DNA from: Eggerthellaceae bacterium
Lineage (GTDB): Bacteria > Actinomycetota > Coriobacteriia > Coriobacteriales > Eggerthellaceae
DNA length: 38,011 nucleotides
NCBI GenBank assembly: GCA_022644775.1
Contig: JALCHN010000017.1
Span: 1-38,011, forward strand
Direction of reading: 5' to 3'
Made by a program: the position numbers and the translations under genes. Each line of letters starts with the position of its first letter. The stretch's first letter is position 1. Positions 7,762 to 37,884 of the stretch are shown here, in pieces. A model generated the notes under the pieces. That model made no database searches, had not been told where the DNA came from, and saw nothing but the letters and a program-made list of their open reading frames with translations.

Positions 7762-9291
7762 TTACTCCTCGTGCATGCTATCGACGATGGCGATGAGCTC
7801 CTGAATGGAATGAATACCCATCTTCTGGTAGATGTGCTGCCGATGCGTTGACACGGTGCTTTTAGAAAGGTGCAGCTCTTCCTGGATGTTGGCCAGCGTG
7901 TGTCCCTTGGCGAACAGGGTCATGACCTCGCCTTCGCGTGCAGATAATCCGTATTGGTCGATCACGCGTTGGCACTTCTCGCGGAATCGGTGGCGCGGAG
8001 CGATCGGCAGGATGTTGAGCGCCATGGTGAGATGCTCGTTGGTGAACACGAATGTGGGCACGCAGAGCAGGGCGACGATGCCCGCGATGCAGAAGGGGTA
8101 CACCGTCTGCAGGCTGAACGACCCGCTGAAATAGAGCATCTGACCGGCGACCTGGCCCACGAGCGTGCCGGCGGCCCATCCGGCGCGCGTAAACGCGAAC
8201 GCACGGATGCACGACTCGTAGTAGTGATGACAGAGGCCGCAGATGAGCACCCACACGAACATGCCGAAGCATTGGAAGGCGCCCAGGTTGAAGCTGGTAG
8301 CGAGATAGGTGGGGCCGTCGGGGTAGATGAGGACGCTCGGCGCCAGGGCGGCATCGAGAACCAGCAAGCCGATAACCAGGCTATAGCAGTAGCGCGCGCC
8401 CAACAGCCCCTTCGCGCGCTGCGACACCATAAGCAGACAGATGGCGATGGCGCCTGCCGCCATCAAGAGTCCGCCGGCGCCAACAGCTGTCATGTAGCTT
8501 TGCATGCCGCCGTTCGCAGCGACGACGTTTGCCTGGATGTGAATCGTGCGGATGGTGTAGTTGACGGCGCATGCAATCAACGGCGCAAGGGCAAACGCAA
8601 TGATAAGTTTGCGCAAACGTCGCGTCTGTGTCAGGTCGTAAGGATCGCGCTGGGGCGGGAGCAGAAGCGCATTGATTCCCAAATGCATCGTCTGAGTGCC
8701 GAAGGCGAGCATGAACGCTGAAGCGATAGGCAGCGATGCGCAGAACAGGACATAGGTATAGGTTTCAAACAGTTGGCCCATAAGGAAGAGAACCATGGCT
8801 GCGATATAGGCGATAGCTGCTGCGGCGGTAGCGCGGCGCGTGTCCAGGATGCTCAGCGTGATCCCGAAGCGCAGCAGGAACAACCCCGATGTGATTCCCG
8901 AAAGGACGCCTGCTGCGGTGAGCACCGCGAGCGATGATGCGCCTGGCGCTCCGAGCAGCAACGTGCACAGGTTGCTTACGCTCATGCCCAGCGGAAGCAG
9001 CGCATAGGAGAGGCGGCGTTCCATCAGCTGTCGGGCCTTTTCGGGCATAAGACCTGCCGCTGCGAGCGTAACGGTGATCGCGAGAGACGAAACGAAATAG
9101 ACGGTGTTGAGCATTTGCTCTCCGTCGGCGAATGCGGCGAACTGGCCCATGCTCTGGAACGACGACATCACCCAAGCCATGTTGAACGCGAGTGCGATAC
9201 CGAGCGAGACGACGGGCGCCGAGAAAAGGGTGTCGGGGACGACGGCGACTTGGCGCGCGTCGCGCGCATTCGCCGGGTTCGATTGGTTCAT
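7762..9291 (-). CDS. Membrane-embedded LuxR-family regulator 2
   Basis: A 509-residue paralog in architecture of the regulator at 958. About 12 hydrophobic helices cover residues 25-430, then comes a C-terminal LuxR helix-turn-helix (YGLSAREGEVMTLFAKGHTL, then STVSTHRQHIYQKMGIHS). It is transcribed away from the second molybdoenzyme operon, mirroring cassette 1, and is presumably its dedicated regulator. The N-terminal membrane domains of the two regulators are clearly different in sequence, unlike the nearly identical B subunits. Different inducers are therefore plausible (inference). The ATG at 9291 has AGGAGGA about 7 nt upstream, and longer in-frame starts lack this. A perfect TATAAT lies 22-27 nt before the start on the same strand. 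Confidence 0.86.
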   Translation of the reverse strand: MNQSNPANARDARQVAVVPDTLFSAPVVSLGIALAFNMAWVMSSFQSMGQFAAFADGEQMLNTVYFVSSLAITVTLAAAGLMPEKARQLMERRLSYALLPLGMSVSNLCTLLLGAPGASSLAVLTAAGVLSGITSGLFLLRFGITLSILDTRRATAAAAIAYIAAMVLFLMGQLFETYTYVLFCASLPIASAFMLAFGTQTMHLGINALLLPPQRDPYDLTQTRRLRKLIIAFALAPLIACAVNYTIRTIHIQANVVAANGGMQSYMTAVGAGGLLMAAGAIAICLLMVSQRAKGLLGARYCYSLVIGLLVLDAALAPSVLIYPDGPTYLATSFNLGAFQCFGMFVWVLICGLCHHYYESCIRAFAFTRAGWAAGTLVGQVAGQMLYFSGSFSLQTVYPFCIAGIVALLCVPTFVFTNEHLTMALNILPIAPRHRFREKCQRVIDQYGLSAREGEVMTLFAKGHTLANIQEELHLSKSTVSTHRQHIYQKMGIHSIQELIAIVDSMHEE

Positions 9292-9312
9292 GCAGCTTCC
9301 TCCTGGCGCTCC

Positions 9313-9332
9313 ATTATACCCAGTGTGTGGGT
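9313..9332 (-). promoter_or_regulatory. Promoter -10 and operator-like palindrome of regulator 2
   Basis: The minus strand carries TATAAT at 9318-9313, giving a leader of only about 15 nt before the AGGAGG-led ATG at 9291. Immediately upstream is the palindrome ACCCA-gtgtg-TGGGT (9318-9332), which overlaps the promoter spacer. No good -35 hexamer is seen at 16-18 nt, which suggests activator dependence or autoregulation. Confidence 0.5.
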
Positions 9333-9400
9333 TCGGCATCCTCGTTTGGGCGCGCATGCTCATACCTTGTTCTCTCGTGACGCAAAGCGTGCAATTGGTT

Positions 9401-9416
9401 CGTGTTTTCCCAGGTA
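9401..9416 (-). promoter_or_regulatory. Candidate regulator box, cassette 2
   Basis: The plus strand reads CGTGTTTTCCCAGGTA; the minus strand reads TACCTGGGAAAACACG. It matches 14 of 15 core positions of the box at 2603-2617 in the equivalent divergent region of cassette 1, but in the opposite orientation relative to the operon. Confidence 0.4.
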
Positions 9417-9482
9417 AATGGCATCGTGCTCTGAGCATGAGGGCGAAATTGTGTGCAAATCGTGGCGCTTGCTCGATGTGCG

Positions 9483-9510
9483 GGGTCCCTCGAAGCGGCA
9501 AGTTGGACCC
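9483..9510 (+). promoter_or_regulatory. Leader inverted repeat before operon 2
   Basis: GGGTCC (9483-9488) and GGACCC (9505-9510) are perfect inverted arms with a 16-nt loop, 14 nt before the AGGAGG ribosome site of the second catalytic subunit. It could be an operator or a leader hairpin affecting translation. It has no counterpart at the same place in cassette 1. Confidence 0.3.
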
Positions 9511-22932: not shown

Positions 22933-24138
22933 ATGCCCAGCATCGCCGATACCGTCGACCTCATCCAGACGCTCGAAAGCGCCGACATCACCGTCTCGCC
23001 CGAGCGGTGCGTGGTCGTGCGCAACCGCAATGCGCCTTGCCGCGCCTGCGCCGAGGCGTGCACGTCGCAGGCAATCGTGCTCGATCCAGCGTCGAACGCG
23101 CTTTCGGTGGACGCCGCGGCCTGCATCGGGTGCGGGTCGTGCGCGACGGCGTGCCCCACGGGCGCGCTCGAGGCGAAGAAGCCCACCGACGCCGAGCTGC
23201 TCGCCTCGTGCTTAGCGGCTCTCAAGGCGAACAAGGGTGAAGTCGTCATCGCCTGCAAGCAGATGTGCGATGCCGCAAAAGGCCTCATCGACCAGGGGAA
23301 AGTGGTGAGCGTTGCGTGCCTGGGCCGCGTGGATGAAAGCCTGCTCTCGATTCTTGCCTTGCGCGGGGCCGAAAAGATTCGCCTAGTGCGCCGCGCCTGC
23401 GACGATTGCCCGCACGCGGCGGGCGGGCGTCTGGCCGAGCGCGTGGCGGAAACCGAGCGTGTGCTGCTCGGTACCTGGGGGCGAGCGACGCAGGTGAAGC
23501 TTTCCGACAAGCTGCCCAAGAGCGTGCACAAGGCCGAGGGCGACGCTTACGACCGCGATCGCCGCGCCTTCTTCCACAACCTGAAAGACGACGCGAAGGA
23601 AGCCGCCGTGAAGACGACCGATTTTGCGCTCGAAAGCGAGTTGGGCCTGAAGCAGAAGGCCTCGCGCGACGACGTGATGCAGGAGCTGCATGTGGGCGGC
23701 GACGGCACGATGCCGCATTTCCTGCCCGCTAAGCGCGGCCGCCTGCTCGACGCGTTGAGCAAGATGGGCGAGCCCACCGACGAGCTGATCGATACGCGCC
23801 TGTTCGGGCACGTGATCATCGACGCCGGCGCCTGCCAAAGCTGCAAGATGTGCGCGGTCTTCTGTCCTACGGGTGCGCTTGCGAAGTGCACTGCGAGCGA
23901 CGGCCAGGCGGGCCTTTCGCACTATCCGGGCGCCTGCGTGCAGTGCCATACCTGCGAGGCCGTCTGCCCGCGCCAGTGTCTCACGCTTTCGGAAGAGGTC
24001 TTCGCCCGCGACGTGGCGACCGGCAGGCGGGAGTTCTATCCCATGGAAAGCGACGCCGACATCAAAGAGCGCAACCGCCATGGGATTCTGAACGCGATGC
24101 GCAAGATTACTGGCGGCACCCAGATCTACGAGCGCTAG
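22933..24138 (+). CDS. Multi-cluster iron-sulfur protein with MvhD-like middle
   Basis: A 401-residue soluble protein with two ferredoxin-like pairs. The N-terminal pair uses C26, C36, C39, C43 and C64-x2-C67-x2-C70-x3-C74. The C-terminal pair (about 295-345) has CQSCKMCAVFCP and CVQCHTCEAVCP. Between them, residues 103-165 (VVIACKQMC, then VACLGRVDESLLSILALRGA, then CDDCPHAAGG) resemble the MvhD/HdrA-linked hydrogenase delta domain, whose cysteines hold a [2Fe-2S] cluster. This suggests an electron bridge between soluble partners. No signal peptide is visible, so it is cytoplasmic. The start ATG at 22933 has GAAGGAG about 10 nt upstream. The functional partner is unknown. Confidence 0.75.
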   Translation: MPSIADTVDLIQTLESADITVSPERCVVVRNRNAPCRACAEACTSQAIVLDPASNALSVDAAACIGCGSCATACPTGALEAKKPTDAELLASCLAALKANKGEVVIACKQMCDAAKGLIDQGKVVSVACLGRVDESLLSILALRGAEKIRLVRRACDDCPHAAGGRLAERVAETERVLLGTWGRATQVKLSDKLPKSVHKAEGDAYDRDRRAFFHNLKDDAKEAAVKTTDFALESELGLKQKASRDDVMQELHVGGDGTMPHFLPAKRGRLLDALSKMGEPTDELIDTRLFGHVIIDAGACQSCKMCAVFCPTGALAKCTASDGQAGLSHYPGACVQCHTCEAVCPRQCLTLSEEVFARDVATGRREFYPMESDADIKERNRHGILNAMRKITGGTQIYER

Positions 24139-30314: not shown

Positions 30315-31550
30315 TTAGGCGAAGATCGAGGTGTCGCCGCGGACGTCGCCGCGGTCCTCGGCCGCCTTGATGTCGGCGTCGCTGTAGCCCAGGTCGCGCA
30401 TGATCTCTTCGGTCTGCGCGCCCATGTTGCCGTAGTTCTTGTACTCTGGCGCGCCGGGCATGCTGTCGAAGTGCACCGGGCCCGTGGGCATGATCTTGTC
30501 GCCCGAGGGGTAGGGGATCTTCACAAGCATGTCGTTGTCCCAGCAGTTCTGGTCCTCGTAGATGTCGAGCGGGGTCGAAGCCGGCTCGCAGGGCATGTCC
30601 TGTTCCTTGAGCATCTTGAGCACCTCGGCCTGCGTGAACTTGGCGAAGGCCTCGTCGAGGATGTCGACCACCTGCGTGTTGAGGCTCTTCTCGTTCACCT
30701 TCGCGCAGATGTTAATCTCCGGGTCGATCGCGAACATCTTGCTCGTGTCGATGCCGAGCGTGCTCGTAAGCTTGTCGAAGTCACGGTCGTATTCGGGCAG
30801 GCACACGCACACCCATTTGCCGTCGCTGCAGCAGTACATGTTGTTGAAGGGGTTGGGGACCTCTTTGCGGTTCTTGGGGTACTGGTTGCCGTACTGGGCC
30901 GAAATGATGCCCGTCGACAGCGTGTAGAGGCCCGCATGCTGCAGCGGCACCGACACGCGGTCGCCCTCGCCGGTGCGCGTGCGGTTGAACAGCGCCGCGG
31001 CGATGCCCGACGCCAGGAAGATCGACACGCTGAAGTCGCCCAGGCCGTTGGTGGGGATGAGCGGGGCGTCGCCGCGGTTGACGGTGGTGCCGAACACGCC
31101 GCCGCGCGCCATGTAGCAGGTCACGTCGAAGCCCGCCGCGTCCTTTTCGGCGCCCTTGTCGCCGTAGCCGGTCACCTGCGCGTACACGAGCTTGGGGAGC
31201 TTGGCGTGCAGGGTCTCGTAGTCGAGCCCCATCTTCTTCAGGCTCTTCGTGCGGTTGGACGTGAGGAAGACGTCGGCTTCCTCGAGCAGCTTCATCATGA
31301 CTTCCAGGCCGGTGTCGCTCTTCAGGTTGAGCGTGACGAACTTCTTGCCGAAGTTGGCGTAGTCGAAGGCCAGGTTCTCATCGTCGGACATGGGCATGTT
31401 GAACACGCCGGCCTGGCGACGGGCCGGGTCGCCCTTGAAGCTTTCGACCTTGATGATGTCGGCACCCCATTCGGCGAGCAGGCGGCCGGTGGTGGGGGCG
31501 GCAAGGTAGCTGGTCAGGTCGACGATCTTTACACCCTCGAGTGGTTTCAT
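30315..31550 (-). CDS. CaiB/BaiF-family CoA-transferase (class III)
   Basis: A 411-residue class III CoA-transferase, moving CoA between carboxylic acids through mixed anhydride and thioester intermediates. The opening PLEGVKIVDLTSYLAAPTTG and WGADIIKVESFKGDPAR are family hallmarks. The catalytic aspartate should be D142 in GFDVTCYMARGG, as in FldA, CaiB and formyl-CoA transferase. Members act on carnitine, cinnamate, bile acids and oxalate, among others. The acyl-CoA dehydrogenase gene upstream on the same strand suggests a CaiA/CaiB-like or Fld-like pair, where the acid is loaded with CoA, reduced, and the CoA recycled (inference). The ATG at 31550 follows AAAGGA. A hairpin lies between this gene and the dehydrogenase. 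Confidence 0.92.
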   Translation of the reverse strand: MKPLEGVKIVDLTSYLAAPTTGRLLAEWGADIIKVESFKGDPARRQAGVFNMPMSDDENLAFDYANFGKKFVTLNLKSDTGLEVMMKLLEEADVFLTSNRTKSLKKMGLDYETLHAKLPKLVYAQVTGYGDKGAEKDAAGFDVTCYMARGGVFGTTVNRGDAPLIPTNGLGDFSVSIFLASGIAAALFNRTRTGEGDRVSVPLQHAGLYTLSTGIISAQYGNQYPKNRKEVPNPFNNMYCCSDGKWVCVCLPEYDRDFDKLTSTLGIDTSKMFAIDPEINICAKVNEKSLNTQVVDILDEAFAKFTQAEVLKMLKEQDMPCEPASTPLDIYEDQNCWDNDMLVKIPYPSGDKIMPTGPVHFDSMPGAPEYKNYGNMGAQTEEIMRDLGYSDADIKAAEDRGDVRGDTSIFA

Positions 31551-31588
31551 ATGCGTTCCTTTGAACGAAGCGGATGCTATGCAGAAAT

Positions 31589-31620
31589 AAGGCCTGCCCG
31601 CAGGTTGCGTGGCAGGCCTT
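31589..31620 (-). terminator. Hairpin between acyl-CoA dehydrogenase and CoA-transferase genes
   Basis: AAGGCCTGCC (31589-31598) and GGCAGGCCTT (31611-31620) are perfect 10-nt arms with a 12-nt loop. The minus-strand tail is ATTTC. It probably reduces the amount of CoA-transferase message relative to the dehydrogenase rather than separating them fully. Confidence 0.65.
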
Positions 31621-31684
31621 TTCAATTCCAAATCGCGTCTTATGGGTGAGTCTGTTGAAGATGCGATAAGTGGTTAGCAGTGAA

Positions 31685-32872
31685 TTAGTCGTCGTATTCC
31701 ACGACGCCGCCGAACTTCTGGCAGTTGCGGGCGATGGTGATGCGCTGCACGTTGGGAGCGCCTTCCTCGAGCCACATGGCGCGCGCGTCGCGATAGAGGC
31801 GCTCGGTGGGGCCGTAGGGGCTGTCCTCGAAGTAGCCGTCGCCGCCGAAGATCTCCAGCATGCCGTCGGAAACGATGCGGGTGCAGTAGATCGAGAAGAG
31901 CTTCGCCATGGCGGCCTTTTCCTCGATGTATTTGCCGTTCGGGTCGGTGTCATAGGCCTTGCCGAAGTCACGCACCATGCAACGCAGGGCGTGCGTGTAG
32001 GTCTGCATTTCGGCGATTTCGCGCTTGATCATCTGGCGCTTGCCGATCGGCTTGCCGAAGGTCACGCGGTCGTTGGCGCGCTTCAGCGACATTTCCAGCA
32101 TGCGCTGGCACATGCCCAGGTTGGAAGCGGCGATGTGGGCGCGGGAGACGGACAGCGAGTGAATCGCGATCTCCATGCCCTGGCCTTCCTTGCCGAGCAG
32201 GTACTTCTTGTCGAGCTTCATGTTGGTGAACTTCAGGCCCGTGTGAGCGGCGCCGCGGCAGCCCATCATGTGGGGCATCGGGGTCACTTCGTAGCCCGGG
32301 GTGTCGACCGGCACGAAGAACGCGGACAGGCGGGAGTCCTTCGGGTCATCGGGGTCGGTGACGGCGATGACGTAAGCGAACTGGCAGCAGTCCGTGTGGG
32401 AGATGAGCCACTTCTCGCCGTTGAGGATGTAGTCGCCGTTCTCGTCCTTGATGGCCGTGGTGTGGATGTCGGCGCCCGTGCCACCGGTCTGCTCGGTCAG
32501 AGCGAAGCAGGTGAAGATGGTCTTGTCCTGGAACTTGTCCATGTACTGGGCCTTGAGCTCATCCGAACCGTAGTCGTCGAGGATGCGCCAGTTCAGGTCG
32601 GCCGCGTAGTGCAGGTGCATGCGCATGCCGCCCGGGCCGCGAGAGAACTCTTCCTGAACCTGCAGAATCTGCTGCTCGGTCAGGCCCCAGCCGCCGTACT
32701 GCTCCGGAAGAGCGAAACGGTAGAGGTCGTTCTGCTTTGCGAGTTCGTAGAACTCGTCGGGGAAGACGTTGGTAACCTCGATCTGAGGCTGCATTTCCTC
32801 GAACGGTCCCTCAGCCAGTTCGCGGATCTGGAGCAGATACTTCTGGAACTGCTCCTCGCTGATCTTCGCCAT
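31685..32872 (-). CDS. Acyl-CoA dehydrogenase family protein (CaiA/FldC-like enoyl-CoA reductase candidate)
   Basis: A 395-residue acyl-CoA dehydrogenase with the usual N-terminal helices, FAD-binding middle (FALTEQTGGTGADIHTTAIK, then GEKWLISHTD) and C-terminal helical domain. The catalytic base is likely E370 in LEEGAPNVQR, in the place of the YEG glutamate of short-chain enzymes. In anaerobes such proteins often run as enoyl-CoA reductases with electron-transferring flavoprotein; no Etf genes are in the window. The CoA-transferase follows downstream, and a ligase unit lies behind it on the same strand. Substrates such as crotonobetainyl-CoA or cinnamoyl-CoA are possible but not shown. The ATG at 32872 follows AAAGGAGGA. 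Confidence 0.92.
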   Translation of the reverse strand: MAKISEEQFQKYLLQIRELAEGPFEEMQPQIEVTNVFPDEFYELAKQNDLYRFALPEQYGGWGLTEQQILQVQEEFSRGPGGMRMHLHYAADLNWRILDDYGSDELKAQYMDKFQDKTIFTCFALTEQTGGTGADIHTTAIKDENGDYILNGEKWLISHTDCCQFAYVIAVTDPDDPKDSRLSAFFVPVDTPGYEVTPMPHMMGCRGAAHTGLKFTNMKLDKKYLLGKEGQGMEIAIHSLSVSRAHIAASNLGMCQRMLEMSLKRANDRVTFGKPIGKRQMIKREIAEMQTYTHALRCMVRDFGKAYDTDPNGKYIEEKAAMAKLFSIYCTRIVSDGMLEIFGGDGYFEDSPYGPTERLYRDARAMWLEEGAPNVQRITIARNCQKFGGVVEYDD

Positions 32873-32950: not shown

Positions 32951-33048
32951 ATCGTTGGTTCCGAAGGGCTGTGGTGGATCGATAGCGGCAGCTTATGGAT
33001 GCAGGTCGGACGGGCGGGCGACAATCGGATATTCGGCCGAAAATATGC

Positions 33049-33077
33049 AAAAAAGCCCGGGGCCGAAGCCTCGGGGC
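33049..33077 (-). terminator. Intrinsic terminator of the ligase/Cys-rich gene unit
   Basis: On the minus strand GCCCCGAGG, a short loop and CCCCGGGC are followed by six T residues (33054-33049). It lies 31 nt after the stop of the Cys-rich gene. Confidence 0.75.
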
Positions 33078-33107
33078 GCGATGGAACGGTGCTGTCCGAT
33101 GCGTCGC

Positions 33108-33725
33108 TCACGGCAGTTCGTGAAGCTGGCGCAACACCGCGGCATCCTCTTTGATGCGGTCGAAACTGGCGCGCACAAGGCCCAGCCCGGCCACGTAGCA
33201 GTAGGCGCACATGCCCGATTTGCAGCGGAAGGTGCACTCTTTGCAGGGGTCGCTGTTGCAGTAGCAGTAGGCGTCTTCGTCGGCGAAGGCGAAGGTGAGC
33301 GGGGAATACTTCTTTTCGTGGACGTATTTCAGCTGCGTGCCGGTGAAGGTCTTCAGCAGAACCCATTCCAGCTGGTAGGCACGCCTGTCGGCGATGCGCC
33401 ACGACACCTTCACGCAGTTGTTGTTGAAGCCCCCGCGGAACTGGAAGTCGATCTGCACGTCTTCGGGCGCGTCGGCGACGTCGATGGGCTCAAGGCGCTC
33501 CATGGGCGCGCCGCAGGCGGCGCATATGGGCGCGGACAGGTTCTGGTAGGGTGGCTGGCCCAAAAGCGTGCGCCCGCCGCCGGTGTAGTGCAGACGGGTC
33601 CCGTTCGATATGCCCGCGTAGACGTTTCCGCAGGTGGGGCACCGGAAGACGGGCACGTCGTCGGCAGCGATGCGGGGCTTCCAAGTGGCGTGGGTGCGGG
33701 TGGGACTGTATTTCTGTTCGATCAT
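33108..33725 (-). CDS. Unrecognised cysteine-rich metalloprotein
   Basis: A 205-residue protein I cannot assign. An N-terminal zinc-ribbon-like module uses C29-x2-C32 and C68-x2-C71. A central domain (about 85-150; DFQFRGGFNNNCVKVSWRI, LEWVLLKTFTGTQLKYVHEK) looks beta-rich. The tail has seven cysteines in 23 residues (C154, C156, C161, C164, C168, C173, C176), enough for an iron-sulfur or zinc cluster. It follows the CoA ligase gene by only 12 nt on the same strand, so the two are co-expressed. The ribosome site (GAGAACG) is weak, suggesting translational coupling. A redox or CoA-pathway accessory role is inference only. Confidence 0.65.
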   Translation of the reverse strand: MIEQKYSPTRTHATWKPRIAADDVPVFRCPTCGNVYAGISNGTRLHYTGGGRTLLGQPPYQNLSAPICAACGAPMERLEPIDVADAPEDVQIDFQFRGGFNNNCVKVSWRIADRRAYQLEWVLLKTFTGTQLKYVHEKKYSPLTFAFADEDAYCYCNSDPCKECTFRCKSGMCAYCYVAGLGLVRASFDRIKEDAAVLRQLHELP

Positions 33726-33737
33726 GGCGTTCTCGTT

Positions 33738-35378
33738 CTACTCGCTGGCGGGCGCGGCGGCGGCCATGCGGCGCTCGAGCTCCGCGGCGAGCTTGAAGCG
33801 CTGCACTTTGCCGGTGGCGGTGTGGGGGATGGCGTCGATCGTCTCGATGCGCTCGGGCCAGATGCGCTTGGGCACGCCGCGGCCGGCAAGCCAGGCGGTC
33901 ACGCTGGCAACGGTGGGCGCGGTCTCGCCTGCGGGTACCGTGGTAAACAGGCAGATGCGCTCGCCCAGGCGCTCGTCGGGCACGCCGACCGTCGCGTGGT
34001 CGCCCACGCCTGGGGCTCCCGTCACGGCTTCGTCCACCTCGCGGGCCGAAATGTTCTCGCCCCCGCGGATGATGATCTCCTTCATGCGGCCGTTGATGCG
34101 GATGCGGCCTTTCGCGTCCATCGTGCACAGGTCGCCGCTGTAGAACCAGCCGTCCTCATCGAGGGCGCGTGCGGTGCGCTCTGGCTCGTTCAGATAACCC
34201 ACGAACACGTTGGGCCCGCGGCTCGCTTCCTCGCCCTGCACGCCTGCGGGCACGGGGTTGTGATCGGCATCGACCACGCGCACCTCGATGCCCTCGTAGG
34301 GGATGCCCGAAAAGCGCCCGTTCCATTCGAGCACCTCGTCGAGCGGCACGTAGGCGTGCGGGCAGCTCTCGGTCGACCCGTAGGATTCCGAAAGCAGGAT
34401 CTTGTAGCGCCAGGCGTGCGCGATCAGACTCGGCGGCACCGGGGCCCCGCCGCAGATGTAGAAGCGCAGGCTGGGAAGCGCGCCGCCCGTCTCGTCGAGG
34501 GTGCGCAGCAAATCGAAGATGAAGGGCGTGGCGCCATGGGACCAGGTGCAGCCTTCGCGGTTGATGAGCTTGACGGCGGCAGCGGGGCTATAGCGCTCCT
34601 GCAGGACCGTGGTGCCGCCCAACAGGACGGCGGCGATAAGGCCGTGGAAGAGCCCGGTGGCATGGTGCAGGGGGCTCGGCATCCACATGACGTCGTTGGG
34701 CGAGAGGTCGAGCACCGAAAGGTAGGATCTCTCGCTGAACAGGATGTTGTTGTGGGTGAAGAGCGCCTGTTTGGGCGTGCCGGTCGACCCCGACGTGGAA
34801 AGGATGCAGGCGATGTCGTCCGCATGCGACGGGGCGGGCGCGGCGAGGGGCTCGGCGCTGGCGAGCACGGTGGAAAGCGCGCGGGCGGCGTCGTGGGCCG
34901 CGGACTCGCGGTCGACGAAGAGCCGGGCGCGCAGACCGGGCACGTCGCGCAGGGCGGCGGCTTCGGCTTCGTAATCGCGCCCATGGTAGCAGGTGGGGGC
35001 CAGGTAGGCCGCACTGTCGCTCGCGCGCAGGGCTTCCGCCACGCGCGCGCCCTGCACGTGCACGTCGAGCGGGTGCATTACGGCGCCCACCTTCATGCAG
35101 GCGATGACGCAGACGGCGCATTCGGTCCATTTGGGCATCTGGAAGGTCACGACGTCGCCGTTGCCCACGCCCTGGGCGGAAAGCCAACCGGCCAGGCGGG
35201 CGGCGTCTCGGTCGATGTCGCGGAAGGTCCGGCCCGAGCGCTCGTCTTTCACGAAGGTGCGGTCGGGGGTTGCGGCCACGCGGGCGTTCCATACGTCGGC
35301 GATCGTGTCGGTACCCCACCAACCCTTGCGGTAGTAGAGGCGCTTGCGCGTCTCGCTCGTGGCGTTCTGCTCGATCAT
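33738..35378 (-). CDS. AMP-forming acyl-CoA ligase (FadK/CaiC-like)
   Basis: A 546-residue member of the ANL (acyl-CoA synthetase) superfamily, which activates a carboxylic acid to acyl-AMP and then acyl-CoA. The phosphate-binding loop is STSGSTGTPKQ (194-204). ESYGSTES, GWFYSGDL and GRMKEIIIRGGENIS are the A5, A7 and A8 motifs. The catalytic lysine sits in HTATGKVQRFK near residue 525. The acid is unknown; CaiC (carnitine), FadK (fatty acids) and aryl-acid ligases are the nearest plan. It probably supplies the first CoA thioester for the dehydrogenase and CoA-transferase encoded just downstream. The ATG at 35378 was chosen for GGAGGAGGG upstream over in-frame ATGs further out. Confidence 0.9.
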   Translation of the reverse strand: MIEQNATSETRKRLYYRKGWWGTDTIADVWNARVAATPDRTFVKDERSGRTFRDIDRDAARLAGWLSAQGVGNGDVVTFQMPKWTECAVCVIACMKVGAVMHPLDVHVQGARVAEALRASDSAAYLAPTCYHGRDYEAEAAALRDVPGLRARLFVDRESAAHDAARALSTVLASAEPLAAPAPSHADDIACILSTSGSTGTPKQALFTHNNILFSERSYLSVLDLSPNDVMWMPSPLHHATGLFHGLIAAVLLGGTTVLQERYSPAAAVKLINREGCTWSHGATPFIFDLLRTLDETGGALPSLRFYICGGAPVPPSLIAHAWRYKILLSESYGSTESCPHAYVPLDEVLEWNGRFSGIPYEGIEVRVVDADHNPVPAGVQGEEASRGPNVFVGYLNEPERTARALDEDGWFYSGDLCTMDAKGRIRINGRMKEIIIRGGENISAREVDEAVTGAPGVGDHATVGVPDERLGERICLFTTVPAGETAPTVASVTAWLAGRGVPKRIWPERIETIDAIPHTATGKVQRFKLAAELERRMAAAAPASE

Positions 35379-35572
35379 GGCACCCTCCTCCTGCAAGCGC
35401 ATCTCCCTGTGCGCGTGTGTGGAAACATGATGGTTCACCTGGGCATATATGCAATTCGATGGATATACGGAGGTGTGATTCGAGTATAGGGGGCGAAGCG
35501 CGCGAGGATTTATCCGAAGTGCTGGGGCCAAAGCGCCGAACCCATCGGTCCAGCCGATTGATGTGACAACGG

Positions 35573-35687: not shown

Positions 35688-37040
35688 TTACAGCGGCAGC
35701 AGGGGCGTCAGCAGGTTGAGCATGGCCTGCGAGGCGGTGGGGAAGGTGAAGATCATCTGGGACAGGTCGCGCCCGGTGAGCTTCTGGTTGATCACGATCG
35801 CGGCGAGGTCTGCCCACACGCCGGCGTCCTGGCCGTAGAAGGCCGCGCCTTCGAGCAGCCCCGTCTCCTGCGAGAAGACGAAGGCGAATTCGGCATCGCT
35901 TTCGTTCTTCGCCTCAAAGAGCAGGCGCTTGCCGAAGTCGACGGTCTCGATGCGCCAACGGCCGGGATCGGCTTCCGCTTCGGCCAAGGTGACGCCCGCC
36001 TGCGCGATGCGCGGCAGCGTGAAGACGAGGTTGGGAATGGCGGGGTAGGAGATGGGCTCGCTGGAAAGCCCCAGAATCTGCTGGGCGATGTAGTTCGATT
36101 CGAAGGTCGCGGTGGGCGTGAGCTTGGGGATGCGCTTGGCCACGCAGTCGCCCGACGCGAAGACGTTGGGCACGGCGGTGCGCATATGGTCGTCGACTTC
36201 GATGCCGCGGCTCGAGGCGGCGATGCCGAGCGCTTCGAGCCCCAGGTTCTCGACGTTGGCGACGCGGCCCGTGGCGCCGAGCACGTAATCGCAGGCCAGA
36301 GTCGATCCGTCGGTGAAGGTGACGACGGTGTCGCCGCCGTCCTGCGCGACCGAAGAGAGCTCGTGATTCAGCAGGAAGGTGACGCCCTGGGCCTTCAGCT
36401 TGTCGACCACGCGCGACACGTAGCGGGCGGGGTACATCGAAAGGATGCGCTCGCTGTGGTGGATGACGGTGACTTCCGAACCCATGAGCGCGGCGATCGA
36501 CGCGAATTCCATCGAGATGATGCCCGCGCCCACGAAGGCGATGCGCTTGGGGAAGACGTCGACGTCGAGGAAATCGCGGCTGTCGTGGATGAGCTCGTCG
36601 CCGGGGATGCCCAAGCGGCGCGGGCGCTCGCCGGTGCCGAGCACGATGTAGTCGGCCGTGATGCGCTTTCCGCCGGCCTCGACGGTGTGCGCGTCGACCA
36701 GCGTGCCATGGCCGCGGAAGACGGGCATGCCCATCTGGGCGAACATGCCTTCGAGCACCGTGTGCACGGGGGAGATGACCTGCTTTTTGTAGGCCATTAG
36801 AGCGCTCCAGTCGACGACGGGCGTTTCGTCGACGCCGATGCCTCGGTAGCGACTGAGGCCGTCGACCAGCTCGAAGGGGGAATCGAGCAGGATCTTGGCG
36901 TTGCATCCCCAGTTGGTGCAGGTGCCGGCGACGGTGTCCTCTTCGACGAAGGCCACCTTCTTCTGCGCCTTCGCGAGCATGAGCGCCGCATGCCAGCATG
37001 CATGTCCGGATCCAATGAACACCACGTCGTAATCGTACAT
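35688..37040 (-). CDS. Pyridine nucleotide-disulfide oxidoreductase-like flavoprotein lacking the His-Glu base
   Basis: A 450-residue protein of the lipoamide dehydrogenase / mercuric reductase group. The FAD site is VVFIGSGHACWHAALML. The redox disulfide C41-x4-C46 lies in GTCTNWGCNAK (usually GGTCLNVGCIPSK). The NAD(P) site is IAFVGAGIISMEFASIAALM. FASGDC and the C-terminal dimer domain follow. At the end, FPTASQ replaces the invariant HPTxSE: F433 for the catalytic His, Q438 for the Glu. Proton transfer to a dithiol is therefore unlikely to work in the usual way, and the enzyme may reduce something else. It is the first gene of the leftward group after the palindrome, with a strong promoter at 37100-37128. 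GAGGAGG precedes the ATG at 37040. Confidence 0.85.
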   Translation of the reverse strand: MYDYDVVFIGSGHACWHAALMLAKAQKKVAFVEEDTVAGTCTNWGCNAKILLDSPFELVDGLSRYRGIGVDETPVVDWSALMAYKKQVISPVHTVLEGMFAQMGMPVFRGHGTLVDAHTVEAGGKRITADYIVLGTGERPRRLGIPGDELIHDSRDFLDVDVFPKRIAFVGAGIISMEFASIAALMGSEVTVIHHSERILSMYPARYVSRVVDKLKAQGVTFLLNHELSSVAQDGGDTVVTFTDGSTLACDYVLGATGRVANVENLGLEALGIAASSRGIEVDDHMRTAVPNVFASGDCVAKRIPKLTPTATFESNYIAQQILGLSSEPISYPAIPNLVFTLPRIAQAGVTLAEAEADPGRWRIETVDFGKRLLFEAKNESDAEFAFVFSQETGLLEGAAFYGQDAGVWADLAAIVINQKLTGRDLSQMIFTFPTASQAMLNLLTPLLPL

Positions 37041-37099
37041 AGTTGCCTCCTCGACTTCGCGGTCAGTACCTGCTGGCCTTATGTATTGAACTACAAACA

Positions 37100-37128
37100 A
37101 TTGTGCACAATCAAATAGAGCACGTCAA
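37100..37128 (-). promoter_or_regulatory. Promoter of the flavoprotein gene with ATTGTGCACAAT operator
   Basis: The minus strand has TTGACG (37128-37123), 17 nt, then CACAAT (37105-37100), one of the best consensus promoters in the window. The perfect 12-nt palindrome ATTGTGCACAAT (37100-37111) covers the -10, so a repressor would block RNA polymerase. Confidence 0.65.
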
Positions 37129-37374: not shown

Positions 37375-37884
37375 ATGAAGACCACTGAAACTCTGAAAAG
37401 CGACAAGCGCGGGTTCACCTTGGTGGAGCTCATCGTCGTCCTCGTGATCTTGGCGGTTCTGGCCGCCATTCTCGTGCCCACGCTGATCGGCTACATCAAC
37501 CAGGCGGGCTCGCAGAAGGACTACGCGGCGGCCCAGTCGCTGCGCGAAGCCGCCCAAGCCGAAATCGACGAGCACTATGCCGAAGTGCCTTCCGAACAGA
37601 ACTACCAGGTCATCTACTACGCAGGCGGTAACTCGGGCAGACCGAAGCCCTATAACACCGACGCCATTGCTCTGGCGGGGCTCGATCAAAGCCACGTGTG
37701 CTATGTCTTCTACGTGGACGCCCAGACGCACCAGGTCGAAGAAGGCTGCGTGGCGTTTGCGGGCAAGCACGCCTATTACCTTACGTCTGACAACCAGTGG
37801 ACCACGACCAAGCCCACCACCACCGAATATAAGACGGATGCGGCTCTGTCGATGTACGACTACATCCTCGACAAAGTGCAGTAA
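37375..37884 (+). CDS. Type IV pilin-like / pseudopilin protein
   Basis: A 169-residue prepilin. A short charged leader ends KRG, followed by FTLVELIVVLVILAVLAAIL. Cleavage is expected after G13, giving F14 as first mature residue and E18 as the conserved fifth-position glutamate. The helix is followed by a globular domain with Cys near 115 and 124 (HVCYVFYV ... EEGCVAFAG), possibly a disulfide loop as in minor pilins. No peptidase, ATPase or platform gene lies in the window, so it may belong to a split or partly lost pilus or competence system. The ATG follows GGAG at 7 nt. An IS3-family element begins 17 nt after the stop. Confidence 0.88.
   Translation: MKTTETLKSDKRGFTLVELIVVLVILAVLAAILVPTLIGYINQAGSQKDYAAAQSLREAAQAEIDEHYAEVPSEQNYQVIYYAGGNSGRPKPYNTDAIALAGLDQSHVCYVFYVDAQTHQVEEGCVAFAGKHAYYLTSDNQWTTTKPTTTEYKTDAALSMYDYILDKVQ

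Follow-up and report, generated by a model that had tools for sequence, protein, structure and literature searches.

The window (the whole stretch of DNA analysed, 38,011 nucleotides) carries on its minus strand an open reading frame, 33108-33725, that begins with ATG and encodes a 205-residue protein, referred to here as T. Its gene is embedded in a cluster for an AMP-forming acyl-CoA ligase, an acyl-CoA dehydrogenase (AcdA), and a family III CoA-transferase (Table 1). The sequence-only reading had counted twelve cysteines in T, and these are present at residues 29, 32, 68, 71, 104, 154, 156, 161, 164, 168, 173, and 176; the seven assigned to the C-terminus lie exactly where they had been placed, but span the last 52 rather than 50 residues. 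The proposed spacing of 12 nt between the ligase stop codon and the start of T (AACGAGAACGCC) was likewise confirmed, as was the poor ribosome site, with only a weak GAGA-like site preceding the start. Among five close orthologue pairs, T is under purifying selection (dN/dS approximately 0.03-0.29, the values for the pairs L042/L044 and L037/L094 being rough because dS exceeds 1 and synonymous sites are saturated), and family comparison indicates that its core is kept as far as Lactobacillaceae and Sporomusa. Together, these observations indicate that T is not a chance open reading frame. A plus-strand open reading frame (32955-35489) overlapping both T and the ligase gene was taken to be a GC-rich artefact. 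The same genome (G000) encodes a second T (L032, G000:C9:13311-13880) that is 57% identical to the first and lies within a second ligase-T-AcdA-CoA-transferase cluster. Elsewhere in the window are a prepilin-like protein whose N-terminus carries a methylation motif (37375-37884, plus strand; PF07963), a 401-residue protein with ferredoxin-type 4Fe-4S motifs near its N-terminus and a second Cys-rich region near its C-terminus (22933-24138, plus strand), and two long proteins with C-terminal LuxR-type HTH domains (958-2685 and 7762-9501, both minus strand; PF00196); LuxR-type proteins like the latter are encoded directly before T in other genera.

Table 1. Genes of the T cluster in the window and sequence features of T, with positions in the window.
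Feature	Position	Strand	Basis
T, SOR-derived protein with a Cys4 hairpin, 205 aa	33108..33725	minus	ORF list, family alignment, predicted fold
AMP-forming acyl-CoA ligase, 546 aa, upstream neighbour of T	33738..35378	minus	Pfam/NCBIfam
AcdA, from a distinct subfamily of acyl-CoA dehydrogenases; the gene that co-occurs best with T	31685..32872	minus	Pfam/NCBIfam, genome survey
Family III (CaiB/BaiF-type) CoA-transferase, downstream of T	30315..31631	minus	Pfam/NCBIfam
FAD-dependent pyridine-nucleotide-disulphide-type oxidoreductase, upstream of ligase	35688-37100		Pfam/NCBIfam
N-terminal arm TRTHATWKP, residues 9-17 of T, conserved	33675..33701	minus	Alignment; low pLDDT
Desulforedoxin-like domain, residues 26-80 of T, with C29xxC32 and C68xxC71	33486..33650	minus	Structural alignment to 2Fe-SOR
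SOR-like beta-sandwich, residues 88-190 of T	33156..33464	minus	Sequence and structure comparison
Invariant Cys4 hairpin C156-x4-C161-x2-C164-x3-C168-K of T, inserted relative to SOR	33222..33260	minus	Alignments

No Pfam or NCBIfam model scored above its cut-off against the window protein, and none from Pfam did so against the 27 relatives that make up the alignment and profile termed A1; the gathering score of PF01880, the superoxide reductase (SOR) model, was reached by none of these proteins. Proteins of this type are currently annotated as hypothetical (e.g., WP_144353121.1). A first indication of their origin came from a phmmer search of PDB sequences with the window protein, which returned 1y07, 'desulfoferrodoxin (rbo)', at an E-value of 0.003. 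With the A1 profile the same entry alone stood out (E 1.8e-5), followed by antibody light chains from 0.087. When 396 genomes of the class were searched with this profile, two well-separated groups of matches emerged: T-type proteins in 37 genomes (E 2.1e-27 or better) and weak matches (1.8e-8 to 1e-3) that mostly covered profile positions 69-157. All 12 of the weak matches that were inspected read as ordinary two-domain SORs comprising a desulforedoxin and an SOR domain (Dx-SORs), and all four that were put to Pfam matched PF01880. Moreover, hhalign comparison of A1 with 11 SORs of the Coriobacteriia gave a probability of 99.1% (E 9.4e-19).

Predicted structures agree with this assignment. 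The AlphaFold2 model of the window protein (mean pLDDT 85.1, pTM 0.82) retrieved SOR or desulfoferrodoxin entries in the first nine rows of a Foldseek search of the PDB (E 9.4e-5 to 1.5e-3), with unrelated rows beginning at 0.06. VIA-align placed five 2Fe-SOR entries first (Z 9.9-10.7, both domains covered), led by 1y07 (Z 10.7, 2.7 A over 120 residues), and one-domain SORs followed at Z 7.5 and below. A model of a T from Lactobacillaceae that does not have the desulforedoxin cysteines (L030; pLDDT 78.2, pTM 0.77) matched SOR in Foldseek (E 3.8e-7), and its residues 23-167 aligned with residues 2-128 of 1y07 at Z 11.3 (118 residues at 2.6 A). In both models an SOR beta-sandwich is preceded by a desulforedoxin domain, and the similar predicted fold of L030 suggests that the desulforedoxin scaffold is retained where its metal site has gone. 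Immunoglobulin light chains and FnIII domains were considered as relatives and rejected, since in the PDB profile search, Foldseek, and VIA-align they appear as common beta-sandwich rows far below those of SOR. T is thus a diverged two-domain desulfoferrodoxin (2Fe-SOR) that shares common descent with SOR, and the claim that it belongs to no known family does not hold. Nor is its N-terminal part zinc-ribbon-like, as had been thought; it is a desulforedoxin (rubredoxin-like) domain, and most members of the family do not have its four cysteines. ChsH2 and other DUF35-type zinc-ribbon proteins are small Cys4 accessories that are also encoded with acyl-CoA enzymes, but T differs from them in having an SOR fold, and neither PF12172 nor PF01796 (DUF35) matched the window protein, the former appearing in just 1 of the 27 A1 members (E 0.036). 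A literature search by title and abstract opening found no publication on such an SOR-derived protein, which does not imply its absence from print.

The metal sites of SOR have fared differently within the family. At centre I, C29xxC32...C68xxC71 of the window protein is a variant of the Fe(Cys)4 motif CxxC-x15-CC of SOR. All four desulforedoxin cysteines were detected by pattern in 19 of 46 full-length T proteins, or in 20 when the Sporomusa protein L117, missed by the pattern due to a spacing under 20, is counted by eye. At centre II, the complete Fe(His)4(Cys) ligand set was present in only 1 of 48 full-length members (L134). In the window protein these ligands are absent from residues 88-190, with H136 being the sole histidine there, and V178 and L181 occupy the positions of the Cys and His of the last SOR strand. 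Judged by its ligands, the SOR iron site has therefore been lost in all but one of the full-length members aligned. On the other hand, a motif C-x4-C-x2-C-x3-C-[KR] is found in 47 of 47 distinct T proteins (one being the 64-residue fragment L051), and, with two Bacillota relatives added, all 48 full-length members have the corresponding cysteines C156, C161, C164, and C168. C173 and C176 lack such conservation and are dispensable. The invariant residues of the A1 alignment are mainly these four cysteines. The hairpin that they form probably binds a single metal centre, either an Fe-S cluster or else Zn. Plant-type [2Fe-2S] ferredoxins have a C-x4-C-x2-C loop with the same spacing as the first three hairpin cysteines of T, but their fold is different and their fourth cysteine follows approximately 29 residues later, rather than after 3.

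These differences bear on whether T could act in oxygen defence. That T serves the pathway's flavoenzymes as a sensor of, or protector against, redox change, oxygen, or superoxide would be in keeping with descent from SOR and with the complete SOR site that L134 retains within an operon of this kind. Such a role is nonetheless improbable given that 47 of the 48 full-length members do not have that site and that the genome of the window encodes a separate Dx-SOR with all SOR ligands (L082). For the same reason, superoxide reductase activity would not be expected of the window protein. Compared with Dx-SOR (PF06397 + PF01880), T shares the two-domain fold across almost its entire length, the N-terminal CxxC...C(xx)C motif in many members, and the full active site in L134, but differs in the missing iron ligands of the window protein, in the invariant Cys4 hairpin, an insertion that precedes the last iron-binding strand, in an N-terminal TRTxATWKP arm, and in the placement of its gene in acyl-CoA clusters. 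Methanoferrodoxin, a class IV SOR, is described as an SOR domain combined with a further iron-sulphur domain (PMC3116461), and it keeps active site II. By that description, the window protein falls outside this class because the ligands of centre II are absent.

How the hairpin relates to the SOR active site is indicated by L134 (L134:8557-9069, from genome G1025). This protein has the desulforedoxin CxxC...CC, ETHLP, LHPMEEEHFIEWI, and a terminal YCNQHGLW, which together make up a full set of SOR ligands, and its Cys4 hairpin stands directly before YCNQHGLW, the iron-binding strand. It scores 50.6 bits against PF01880 (cut-off 22.2), the only T protein above the cut-off among those scanned, and in BLASTP it is 36% identical to the window protein (E 2e-36) and 34% identical to a true SOR (E 1e-28), the latter alignment having an 18-residue gap at the hairpin. 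A first joint alignment had suggested that C156 is the iron cysteine of SOR; as the SORs do not have the insertion, MAFFT sets their cysteine on the first hairpin cysteine, and ligand counts were consequently read from the columns of L134. The occurrence of both the SOR strand and the hairpin in one chain, along with the BLASTP gap, indicates at the sequence level that the hairpin was inserted into the SOR framework and that C156 does not correspond to the iron-binding cysteine of SOR. In a tree built from 48 T and 12 SOR sequences, the two groups are split by one branch (support 100/99), and L134 adjoins the SOR side together with the long-branched L133, the placement of which is unsure. By its residues and position L134 is the missing link between SOR and T, although as a single sequence. 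At its locus the order is acdA-cai-acd2-etfB-etfA-ligase-LysR-T, with T directly behind the LysR gene. T was found in 1 of 38 genomes from the order to which G1025 belongs and in 3 of 388 from the phylum that includes the Agrilactobacillus genome.

The distribution of T points to AcdA as its closest associate. A total of 80 Eggerthellaceae genomes were compared: 36 of the 37 T-positive genomes (G109, from another family, was excluded) and 44 T-negative genomes, drawn from those among the matches listed in the class-wide A1 search (G013 was excluded). AcdA, called present at E 1e-100 or better, was encoded in 36 of 36 T-positive but only 4 of 44 T-negative genomes (Fisher p 2.5e-18), and the ligase in 34 of 36 versus 4 of 44 (p 9.6e-16); both p values overstate independence because the genomes are related. 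Within Eggerthellaceae, T thus co-occurs near-perfectly with AcdA. The earlier expectation that T would be linked to the ligase in relatives is borne out, yet the ligase is not its main partner, since AcdA tracks T best. Choosing a partner by distance correlation, as a measure of co-evolution, was abandoned as not discriminating, with values of 0.71 for AcdA, 0.71 for the ligase, and 0.68 for the CoA-transferase. Among 251 Lactobacillaceae genomes, T occurs in 3 and AcdA in 6, and every genome that has T also has AcdA. No T was found in the stretches examined around AcdA and the ligase in the four T-negative Eggerthellaceae genomes with AcdA (G011, G054, G055, and G298); these and the three Lactobacillaceae genomes with AcdA alone indicate that T is not an absolute requirement. 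A counter-example to the linkage is G754, one of the genomes in which the surveys beyond these two families found T. There, a diverged T (L133:8623-9153, 110 bits) is flanked by a TPP enzyme and by amino-acid permeases and lies close to CoA-transferase subunits and a class III aminotransferase, and no AcdA orthologue was found in the genome (best 170 bits). AcdA itself scores 222 bits against the nearest NCBIfam model, AcrC (cut-off 640), and 170 bits against its best PDB match; to judge by these scores it belongs to an uncharacterised subfamily of acyl-CoA dehydrogenases.

Gene order was compared at 45 T loci (L029, L111, L127, and the fragment L051 were left aside). AcdA is encoded on the examined stretch at 34 of these loci, in 29 cases no more than 5 kb from T; that it is not near T at every locus counts against reading T as an accessory of AcdA. 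A ligase gene on the same strand lies within 150 nt of T at 20 loci at least (gaps of 2-122 nt), a lower bound because a few T starts are over-long. The window and its kin have the order ligase-T-AcdA-CoA-transferase, and AcdA-CoA-transferase-ligase-T is another typical order. In Lactobacillaceae, the order is AcdA-CoA-transferase-ACD-EtfB-EtfA-ligase-T-FAD-linked oxidase, and in Eggerthella, T follows fix-like genes and a LysR gene. On plasmid pSPTER of Sporomusa termitida, the gene immediately before T ('hypothetical protein') encodes an AcdA (648 bits), and the surrounding region holds CoA-transferase, UbiD, ETF, and fadK genes. Elsewhere T is preceded by AcdA or by regulator genes, and where it follows neither ligase nor AcdA it can stand directly behind LuxR (4 loci), TetR (4 loci), or LysR genes (4 loci and L134). 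This might be taken to mean that T is a partner of transcription regulators, but three unrelated regulator families are involved, the ligase is the near neighbour at 20 or more of the 45 loci, and control of the pathway explains the regulators better; we consider such a partnership very unlikely. In three Lactobacillaceae operons without T, the slot behind the ligase is filled by a protein of 146-148 residues (L128:5030-5476, L129:5147-5587, and L130:5339-5779) that by eye resembles a hotdog thioesterase. Displacement of T by a thioesterase was considered and rejected, as a protein of the same kind is also encoded close to T in L030 and L126. That T is itself an acyl-CoA thioesterase, or another enzyme of the pathway, is hardly credible on the same grounds and in view of invariant residues that are mainly four cysteines.

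Taken together, these data would be consistent with a desulfoferrodoxin that has become a metal-binding accessory dedicated to an AcdA-type acyl-CoA reductase/dehydrogenase pathway, composed of ligase, family III CoA-transferase, and AcdA, often with EtfAB. T may dock on AcdA or on an AcdA/ligase module, possibly through the TRTHATWKP arm as a partner-binding peptide, and would most likely pass or gate electrons beside the flavoenzyme. Electron delivery as the first function of the hairpin would fit its place beside the redox iron site of L134, and methanoferrodoxin provides a precedent for an SOR that has gained an iron-sulphur domain. A stronger version would make T an electron carrier of a new class that serves AcdA as its dedicated redox partner; an inserted Cys4 Fe-S cluster would have taken the place of the catalytic iron, and L134, with ligands for all three metal sites, would be a living intermediate. 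This version is entertained only tentatively: a pure carrier is disfavoured by the seven genomes, from two families, that have AcdA but no T, and by the loss of both older iron centres in many members. These points led us to the more cautious reading of T as a metal-binding accessory of AcdA, probably redox, on a repurposed SOR scaffold, which we regard as having an even chance of being correct. Its main rival, which we consider rather unlikely, is a non-redox scaffold or regulatory subunit with a structural zinc in the hairpin that assembles or controls the ligase, CoA-transferase, and AcdA. Such a subunit would accommodate the loss of the desulforedoxin metal site in many members and of the SOR site in nearly all while the fold and Cys4 are kept, the occurrence of AcdA without T, and the conserved N-terminal arm, which is predicted at low confidence like flexible docking peptides; the complete redox iron site that accompanies the Cys4 insertion in L134 speaks against it, and complex formation is a candidate only. 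The original proposal of an accessory of metal-binding type in CoA-linked acid metabolism is supported.

If the AcdA-accessory reading is correct, T would illustrate a stress-defence metalloenzyme changing its job, with the old iron site lost and a new cysteine site inserted and then frozen, and L134 would provide an intermediate for testing the order of these events. In Eggerthellaceae, Lactobacillaceae, and Sporomusaceae alike, the gene accompanies an anaerobic acyl-CoA pathway. The work gives hypothetical proteins of this type an origin and a testable site and points to an uncharacterised acyl-CoA dehydrogenase subfamily of gut bacteria. The substrate of the pathway is not settled by the neighbouring genes (MFS, CoA-transferase, ETF, and crotonase, with UbiD in Sporomusa). 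Many T loci, and also the AcdA loci without T, have a conserved gene of the crotonase family nearby (in most of L027, L031, L038, L040, L041, L044-L050, L103-L109, and L112-L115). In Loigolactobacillus rennini (L029:1682-2900), AcdA is in two pieces with an internal stop, and T is intact.
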